From positions 1 to 21,037 of the IMG/VR virus record IMGVR_UViG_3300040962_000146: DNA of 21,037 nucleotides; one strand, given 5' to 3'. The notes below the pieces were generated by a model. It was not told where the DNA came from. It saw nothing but the letters and a program-made list of their open reading frames with translations, and searched no databases. Position 1 is the stretch's first letter; each line of letters starts with the position of its first letter. The position numbers were made by a program, and so were the translations under genes. Below are positions 15,064 to 17,048 of the stretch, one piece after another. This stretch comes from a virus.

Positions 15064-15064
15064 T

Positions 15065-15136
15065 AGGGGTTGCGAGGATCGAACTCGCCTTAGGCAAATT
15101 ATGAGTTTGCTGCATTCACCAGATTGCTAAACCCCT
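15065..15136 (-). tRNA. tRNA-Met (CAT)
   Basis: It folds as a 72-nt cloverleaf: acceptor AGGGGTT/AACCCCT, D arm with GCA/TGC, anticodon stem GCAAA/TTTGC around loop CTCATAA (anticodon CAT), and T arm GCGAG/CTCGC around TTCGATC. The anticodon stem lacks the three G-C pairs of initiators, so it is probably an elongator. A lysidine-modified Ile (AUA) tRNA is less likely because a TAT-anticodon tRNA sits next to it. CCA is not encoded. Its 5' end abuts the CCA of tRNA-Ile with no spacer. Confidence 0.9.
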
Positions 15137-15211
15137 TGGTAGGACTGCTGGGAATTGAACCCAGTTCACACCGTTATAAGCAGTGGGCCTTAACCAATAG
15201 GCGACAGTCCC
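15137..15211 (-). tRNA. tRNA-Ile (TAT) with encoded CCA
   Basis: It folds with acceptor GGGACTG/CAGTCCT (a terminal G-U pair), D arm GCC/GGC, anticodon stem CACTG/CGGTG around loop CTTATAA (anticodon TAT, reading AUA) and T arm CTGGG/CCCAG. Discriminator A is followed by CCA at 15139-15137, and the next base begins tRNA-Met. The D loop also holds the stop codon of the Phd-like gene, a 22-nt overlap with that gene. Confidence 0.9.
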
Positions 15212-15342
15212 TCAAAGTCCTCTGCAGGTATCATAACTGCAGTATGTTTTCCATTAGTAATTGCAATGTGTTCACCATTTTCTACACGGGTAATCATTTC
15301 ATCCCAGCGTTCTTGAAACTCTTCAACCGTGTAAGTTTCCAT
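15190..15342 (-). CDS. Phd/YefM-like antitoxin-type protein, 50 aa
   Basis: This short gene encodes METYTVEEFQERWDEMI then ITRVENGEHIAITNGKHTAVMIPAEDFEG. It matches the Phd/YefM fold: an N-terminal strand and helix (YTVEEFQ...), then ENGE.IaITn.GK..AVMiPa.D, the dimer and DNA-binding core. Length is 50 aa, versus about 80 for typical YefM, so the C-terminal toxin-binding tail is short or missing. No RelE/YoeB/Doc-like toxin gene is adjacent. ATG 15342 shares a base with the TAA of the upstream gene (TAATG). The TAA at 15190-15192 lies inside tRNA-Ile. Possible role: antitoxin to a host toxin, or a phage regulator (inference). Confidence 0.78.
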   Translation of the reverse strand: METYTVEEFQERWDEMITRVENGEHIAITNGKHTAVMIPAEDFEGLSPIG

Positions 15343-15509
15343 TACTTACCTACCAAGGCAAATAAACCATGCGAATAGAATCCCAATATAATAGATCCTA
15401 AGATCGCACTTATAATTGTAGCAGTTTTATTGTGTTTGTCAATTGCTTTGTCAATCATTTCCTGACACTGTTTTTCTGTAATATAGTGCTCAGGTTTGAT
15501 TTCATCCAT
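15342..15509 (-). CDS. Small single-pass membrane protein, 55 aa
   Basis: This product begins MDEIKPEHYITEKQCQEMI and contains an N-terminal polar helix of about 32 residues followed by one hydrophobic segment, TATIISAILGSIILGFYSHG, a predicted membrane helix ending near the C-terminus. ATG 15509 is chosen because it overlaps the stop of the 51-aa gene (15502-15504) by 8 nt; an upstream in-frame ATG at 15521 gives a 59-aa alternative lying deeper inside that gene. Stop TAA overlaps the start of the Phd-like gene. Function is not known; an inner-membrane or holin-like role is only a guess. Confidence 0.72.
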   Translation of the reverse strand: MDEIKPEHYITEKQCQEMIDKAIDKHNKTATIISAILGSIILGFYSHGLFALVGK

Positions 15510-15657
15510 CCTGTGTGACATTAGGTAGGTTACTCATAGGATCCGGTAACCCACTTACTATAGCACAAGCTCGCTTATAAAAGAAGTTATCTGTTGTTCC
15601 GTTTTCCTCAAATACTTCTTTAATTCTCACCCAGTTAGCGTATTCGTCGGGGTGCAT
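15502..15657 (-). CDS. Hypothetical protein, 51 aa
   Basis: This product starts MHPDEYANWVRIKEVFEENG and continues TTDNFFYKRACAIVSGLPD. The pattern K..FEE.G.TDNFFYKRAC resembles a family of very short conserved cyanophage proteins (recalled, not searched). The body is soluble and helical, with a disordered tail. The start is ATG 15657; no clear Shine-Dalgarno is seen in the 37-nt gap to the upstream gene. The C-terminus overlaps the start of the membrane-protein gene. Function is unknown. Confidence 0.7.
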   Translation of the reverse strand: MHPDEYANWVRIKEVFEENGTTDNFFYKRACAIVSGLPDPMSNLPNVTQDG

Positions 15658-16417: not shown

Positions 16418-16621
16418 TCAGATCTCTGATTCAGAATTCTGAGTTGTGTCTTCGAGTACAATATAGTCCATTCCATCCATTTTGTCAAGATCGAACCATT
16501 CGTACCATTCATCCATCAATGCAAGTCTGTCATAGATGTGTTCAACAGATTCGGTTTCACTCATTTTTTCAATTCTGTTGATTGCCCAATCACGAGCTTG
16601 CATCACTACGTCCGTTTTCAT
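16418..16621 (-). CDS. Hypothetical protein, 67 aa
   Basis: This product begins MKTDVVMQARDWAINRIEKM and is acidic (WFDLDKMDGMDYIVLED), predicted to be soluble and helical. ATG 16621 would overlap the GIY-YIG gene by 32 nt; a second in-frame ATG at 16603 cuts the overlap to 14 nt and has GGA a few bases before it, so the start could be either. A longer upstream extension to 16837 lies wholly inside the GIY-YIG gene and is not credible. The last gene before the tRNA cluster, it ends 11 nt before tRNA-Arg. No function is recognised. Confidence 0.68.
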   Translation of the reverse strand: MKTDVVMQARDWAINRIEKMSETESVEHIYDRLALMDEWYEWFDLDKMDGMDYIVLEDTTQNSESEI

Positions 16622-17048
16622 AGTAGTCTTTTCGGAAGTATCTGCTGAGGATGTTGCTATTGTAGTACTTGGGTTCTCCTGTGTCAAGTGATTCTGTAAG
16701 GACTCCGTTGATAAAGAGTTGTCTGGTTTCTTCAAAATTAGTTTTGCCCTTCGTCTTATGAACACTGATAATAGTTCTGCTAAAATTTTGTTTGCCGAAT
16801 TTGATAATGTCTTCCTTAAGCTCTGGACAAGAACCATAATACTTTTTCCAATCAGATTCTGATTTTACTTTTCGTTTTTTACCTCTAGGAGTTCTGAACT
16901 GCCAGAAGTATTTTCTACCGATGTATTGGCGATTATTTTTGAGATTTGTAATGAGGTAGACAAAACCGTACAGATCGTCAATATCCTCAGATACAAAAGG
17001 TGATCCTTTAAAATACCATGGATTTTCATAATCACATTCGATACTCAT
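16590..17048 (-). CDS. SegE-like GIY-YIG endonuclease
   Basis: This 152-aa protein fits the phage SegE-type GIY-YIG domain. YGFVYLITNLKNNRQYIGRK (residues about 27-46) stands for GIY...YIG with the conserved Arg following. KKRKVKSESDWKKYYGSCPE, FGKQNFSRTIIS and the Glu-containing FEETRQLFING are in the same order as other T4-like phage members. These free-standing nucleases nick or cut phage DNA and can drive their own spread next to conserved genes. Here it sits between nrdB and the tRNA cluster. ATG 17048 overlaps the preceding small gene by 17 nt. Nicking activity is inferred. Confidence 0.83.
   Translation of the reverse strand: MSIECDYENPWYFKGSPFVSEDIDDLYGFVYLITNLKNNRQYIGRKYFWQFRTPRGKKRKVKSESDWKKYYGSCPELKEDIIKFGKQNFSRTIISVHKTKGKTNFEETRQLFINGVLTESLDTGEPKYYNSNILSRYFRKDYYENGRSDASS

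Follow-up and report, generated by a model that had tools for sequence, protein, structure and literature searches.

The phd reading frame and its tRNA neighbours

The window, the whole stretch of 21,037 nucleotides analysed here (IMG/VR record IMGVR_UViG_3300040962_000146), carries on its minus strand a 50-amino-acid ORF that runs from an ATG at 15342 to a TAA at 15190 and encodes METYTVEEFQERWDEMITRVENGEHIAITNGKHTAVMIPAEDFEGLSPIG. On the same strand, ARAGORN places a tRNA-Ile gene (TAT, that is, a UAU anticodon) at 15137-15211, an intact and normal cloverleaf with its CCA encoded, which a tRNA-Met(CAU) gene (15064-15136, minus strand) abuts directly. The ORF and the tRNA-Ile gene have 22 nt in common (15190-15211): nucleotides 132-153 of the ORF are nucleotides 1-22 of the tRNA. 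The third base of codon 44 is tRNA base 1, residues 45-50 (GLSPIG) are translated tRNA sequence, and the TAA stop (15190-15192) corresponds to tRNA bases 20-22. An earlier note on this DNA, made from the letters alone, had put the stop codon inside the D loop. This holds for T20 and A21, but A22, which pairs with U13, already opens the 3' strand of the D stem. On the 5' side lies a 59-amino-acid ORF that matches phrog_1096 (15342-15521, minus strand). Its TAA stop gives its last A to the ATG of phd (TAATG), and translational coupling of the two genes through this shared base is likely.

Membership of the 50-residue protein in the Phd/YefM fold family is secure, although it carries no implication of function. 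The match to PF02604 covers residues 1-46 and scores 31.4 bits (cut-off 29.8). Residues 1-43 alone obtain 27.7 bits, below the same cut-off, which is thus reached only through a fortuitous likeness of tRNA-encoded residues to the family consensus. Assignment to phrog_375, 'Phd-like antitoxin', follows from both a PHROGs profile match (E=2.1e-8) and synteny with phages S-SM2 and Bellamy; the NCBIfam model phd_fam (TIGR01552) scores 19.5, just under its cut-off of 20.8. The earlier note had recognized a Phd/YefM N-terminal core and proposed a structure prediction and a comparison with Phd, and these bear it out. The AlphaFold2 model (pLDDT 85) has a strand-helix-helix-strand-strand-helix topology and is disordered from residue 47 on, and its closest PDB structure in a Foldseek search is 4zlx, the N-terminal DNA-binding domain of P1 Phd, with a TM score of 0.83 (matches to 4zlx and 3hs2: TMq 0.83, E 7e-4). 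Since a sequence search of the PDB with the window protein returned weak matches (VapB46, E 0.013; Phd, E 1.1), the identity of the fold rests on the Pfam and PHROGs profiles and on the model. A pattern scan of GTDB genomes confirmed no cellular homologue of, or donor for, the phage family.

Elsewhere in the window, a minus-strand gene at 16590-17048 bears the phrog_447 label 'NAD synthetase'. Its protein also matches homing-endonuclease profiles (PHROGs, PADLOC), and the label looks wrong.

Relatives in cyanophages and the three forms of the family

A tblastn search located family members in 49 phage records, each bearing the name of a Synechococcus phage, a Prochlorococcus phage or a cyanophage; the family is also present in 46 IMG/VR contigs. 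Every relative locus was translated and then positioned relative to its tRNAs, and three forms can be distinguished. Form (a) has 67-70 amino acids and lies beside or near talC in the isolates examined (S-RSM4, Syn1, S-CAM4). Form (b) has 53-58 amino acids, mostly 56-57, and is mostly found within a tRNA cluster; where tRNA-Ile or tRNA-Met is directly next, the tRNA starts between 1 nt inside and about 16 nt beyond the stop codon. Form (c), with 50 amino acids and an identical 22-nt overlap, is that of the window and of 10 IMG/VR contigs (L013-L022), with no exception. The earlier note had asked whether the overlap recurs in other cyanophages, and these contigs answer that it does. Form (c) corresponds to a single clade in the core-DNA tree, a clade documented by metagenomic contigs throughout, and the overlap is seen in that clade alone. 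The junction is the same in 10 contigs with 10 different metagenome accessions, which rules out an assembly artefact. We regard the overlap as genuine and fixed in its lineage; it defines a variant, modestly new, within an established cyanophage family.

A C-terminal motif is common to forms (a) and (b). It reads roughly hydrophobic-x-x-hydrophobic-aromatic-x-x-His/Asn, continues with acidic residues and ends in Ala/Gly-Ser/Cys/Pro; for the 56- and 67-amino-acid relatives it may also be written L/W-x-x-I/M-Y/F-x-x-H..A-S. Its histidine is invariant in 24 of 24 distinct sequences of the 67-amino-acid type. At the loci of the overlap clade the motif is absent (11 of 11). A general cyanophage C-terminal tag was considered and ruled out: when all ORFs of S-SM2 and S-RSM4 were scanned, the pattern matched the phrog_375 gene only. 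Examples of motif-bearing C termini lie at 1501-1704 of L012 and 3001-3171 of L028.

Two further loci, in S-BM3 (L003, 1672-1720) and in L023, show an internally deleted, tRNA-Met-like remnant directly 3' of the phd stop, a sign of tRNA turnover on that side of the gene.

Compaction of the locus and selection on core and tRNA

In S-SM2 and Bellamy the gene order is phrog_1096, tRNA-Pro and phd, followed by tRNA-Ile and tRNA-Met or by tRNA-Met, and phrog_1096 and phd are 155 nt apart, versus about 2 nt or less in the overlap clade. There, neither tRNA-Pro nor any other tRNA separates the two genes, which generally overlap by one base, the last of the phrog_1096 stop and the first of the phd start (TAATG); in two contigs of the clade, phrog_1096 instead extends a few codons out of frame past the phd start. 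A TATAAATA-like element (at most one mismatch), present in 3.2% of random windows, occurs in the 35 nt before phd at 20 of 37 non-overlap loci and, over the same distance, at none of 10 overlap loci. The locus has been compacted at both ends in the window lineage relative to its relatives, since tRNA-Pro and the TATAAATA-like element are missing upstream, and the conserved tail and the gene's own stop codon downstream.

The TATAAATA-like element of the non-overlap loci (L025-L054 and others), which falls 0-35 nt upstream of phd, resembles a T4 late promoter. It lies in the interval from tRNA-Pro to phd, in most cases with 8-11 nt left to the phd ATG, and would, should it act as a promoter, yield a nearly leaderless phd message.

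The absence of the tail is probably the derived state: almost every other divergent branch carries the tail, S-TIM5 being the exception, so that it would have been lost in the overlap clade rather than gained elsewhere. The tRNA shows no adaptation to the protein, because the first 22 nt of tRNA-Ile are the same in L049, where those bases are noncoding. Across the clade, the codons of residues 45-50 vary twice: by a synonymous ATT/ATC difference in L017 and by a replacement, Pro48His, which stands alongside a change of the D-stem pair C12-G23 to A12-U23. Judged by this covariation, Pro48His is a D-stem compensatory change and the protein tail a passenger of the tRNA. We saw no protein-level selection on the tRNA-encoded tail, in which changes are few and one of them is this compensatory one. 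The claim of the earlier note that the shared DNA ties coding sequence to tRNA structure therefore stands in one direction, the tRNA dictating the tail, and fails in the other.

Both genes are maintained. Computed on codons 1-43 (15214-15342, minus strand) of 10 distinct coding sequences, the Phd-like core of the overlap clade has a pS of 0.43, a pN of 0.04 and a pN/pS of 0.10 (bootstrap 95% 0.04-0.18); tail-bearing groups that have diverged to a similar extent give pN/pS values of 0.19 and 0.31. The core is under strong purifying selection and at least as constrained as in the groups that keep the tail. None of the 11 overlap loci contains a frameshift or an internal stop; the start codon is kept in all of them, and the stop-start coupling in most. 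The tRNA-Ile keeps 100% of its pairs, with two-sided changes at eight pairs (34 cells; 0/500 shuffles). A chance ORF is ruled out by the 22-nt overlap in 10 other contigs, the pN/pS of the core and the conservation of the tRNA pairs.

An apparent second case, an overlap of the antitoxin gene with tRNA-Pro in S-SM2 (L001, NC_015279.1, 1406-1875), was discarded as a coordinate error: the deposited positions of tRNA-Pro, tRNA-Ile and tRNA-Met lie about 55 nt away from those given by ARAGORN. In S-RSM4 (L012, 472-753), the annotated CDS SRSM4_047 ends 44 nt into a tRNA-Ser and is possibly another CDS/tRNA overlap.

Antitoxin function and alternative explanations

Many cyanophage records annotate this family as 'Phd-like antitoxin', a label that readily suggests a role in counter-defence; the earlier note had likewise suggested that the window protein could neutralize a host toxin. 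In Phd, residues 52-73 neutralize Doc, and peptides holding either single helix of this segment lose nearly all affinity, their binding being not measurable (PMC9207808). The window protein ends at residue 50 and has none of this segment. Residues R10 and R31 of YefM are essential for DNA binding (PMC4803016). In our alignment their positions are occupied by Gln10 and Asn30, residue 10 being Q in 44 of 46 members of the phage family and E in the other two. The net charge of residues 1-43 is -7 in the window protein, within a family range of -4 to -10. The loss of the YefM-type arginines and the acidic charge argue, at the level of sequence, against ordinary operator binding and would leave altered DNA recognition or protein pairing to the core. 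This argument is weaker for the 67-amino-acid form because it retains an Arg in the second of these regions.

As the earlier note had observed, no toxin gene is adjacent: Pfam and PHROGs profiles gave no toxin match among the window neighbours of the phd ORF. A hidden partner was ruled out for four toxin families, since ParE/RelE, YoeB, Fic/Doc and PIN are all absent from 11 complete relatives, with positive controls. With the neutralizing segment absent, the two arginines not conserved and the four toxin families missing, a role of the window protein as a solitary toxin neutralizer is unlikely and not supported. The tailed forms deserve separate consideration. The motif of the 56- and 67-amino-acid relatives is spaced like the Doc-binding hot spots F56, I59, M60 and H63 of Salmonella Phd; phmmer searches with 67-amino-acid relatives found no Phd in the PDB, so that the resemblance is to be taken as a lead without database support. 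We accordingly did not retain the family tail as a Phd-type Doc-binding helix, half of the segment being missing as well. Counter-defence by forms (a) and (b) may still be pursued as a lead, given the likeness of their motif to half of the neutralizing segment of Phd.

The explanation that we prefer, to which we would give about an even chance, is that of a tail-less Phd-fold regulator or partner protein that acts by its core alone, its mRNA competing with tRNA maturation at a compacted locus. The gene is one of a small accessory family (phrog_375) that T4-like cyanophages carry in the tRNA cluster and that has the N-terminal fold of Phd/YefM. With tRNA-Pro and the TATAAATA-like element missing, phd begins on the phrog_1096 stop codon; with the tail and its stop missing, translation enters an unchanged tRNA-Ile and ends at the TAA of the D arm. 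The product may be a minimal Phd-fold dimer working through its core, whether in regulation or in partnership with further Phd-type proteins, rather than as a canonical toxin neutralizer, and its translation is presumably coupled to that of the phrog_1096 gene. If phd and tRNA-Ile share a transcript, RNase P cleavage before the tRNA would leave 43 codons plus 2 nt with no stop codon. Protein synthesis and tRNA-Ile maturation from the same molecule would thus be mutually exclusive, a competition that would limit the protein; it may do no harm and need not be a regulatory switch. A bolder version, in which the protein, devoid of tail and basic patch, has acquired a different function, such as pairing with the Phd/YefM antitoxins of the host, and has its output set by competition with RNase P, appears to us quite improbable.

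We weighed three other explanations. A solitary antitoxin, neutralizing a host toxin (of the Doc, YoeB or RelE type) that infection sets free, would account for the Phd/YefM fold and for the lack of an own toxin of the four families in 11 relatives; marine Synechococcus possess such pairs, strain CB0101 among them with yefM/yoeB and two phd/doc pairs (PMC5498466), and the hot-spot spacing of the tailed relatives points the same way. We nevertheless consider it unlikely, since the conserved C-terminal motif is wholly missing from the window protein and even the relatives could hold at most the first Phd helix, which has no measurable Doc binding by itself. Neither the phmmer search nor the GTDB pattern scan helps it. 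Unlikely, too, is a decoy or poison subunit, an acidic core that pairs with host Phd/YefM and alters the repression or stability of toxin-antitoxin operons while leaving the toxin untouched. Such a role would fit a strongly acidic core whose fold is kept without neutralizing tail or YefM basic patch, as well as the presence of Phd/YefM antitoxins in host strains; however, the GTDB pattern scan showed no sequence closeness to cellular antitoxins, and hetero-pairing is hypothetical.

It may also be argued that tail loss disabled the protein and that the ORF persists merely as a lead-in to tRNA-Ile, for the protein lacks the conserved motif that most sets the family apart, and what replaces it is pure tRNA sequence. 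This explanation is disfavoured, and we hold it to be very unlikely: a decaying remnant is at odds with the low pN/pS obtained from 10 distinct sequences at a pS of 0.43, and with start codons and reading frames kept at all 11 loci and stop-start coupling at most. The current annotation calls for caution and should not be taken for a function, because this lineage has retained the core after the one region able to act on a toxin by the known mechanism had gone. The tailed and tail-less forms together provide a natural experiment on the roles of solitary phage antitoxins, and the overlap shows clearly how a tRNA can set the C-terminal sequence of a conserved protein.

Comparison with known systems

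Known 'Phd-like antitoxin' members of phrog_375 occur in S-SM2, S-BM3, RB11-B, Bellamy, S-RSM4 and Syn1, and S-TIM5 has a 'Phd-AT'. These share with the window form the domain and its solitary occurrence, and many also lie in a tRNA cluster beside tRNA-Ile or tRNA-Met; unlike it, they mostly have 56-67 amino acids with the motif, and their reading frames do not extend 22 nt into a tRNA. The N-terminal domain of P1 Phd (4zlx, 3hs2) is similar in fold (TM about 0.83), and truncated Phd is similar in length, but the window protein has neither residues 52-73 nor a Doc partner, does not conserve the positions of YefM R10/R31 and has a net charge of -7. The T4-like cyanophage S-CREM1 also carries toxin-less antitoxin-like genes, YefM and MazE, which have been proposed to act in counter-defence; in contrast to the window, no tRNA overlap appears in the available part of that account (PMC9964418). 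The closest parallel for the overlap itself is that of selB with selC (tRNA-Sec) in Alphaproteobacteria, where a protein ORF and a tRNA also share DNA on the same strand and tRNA processing has been proposed to compete with the full-length protein. In that case the tRNA lies entirely within the overlap and the encoded protein is the partner of that very tRNA (PMC8124441), whereas in the window the overlap spans 22 nt and the protein is unrelated to the tRNA.
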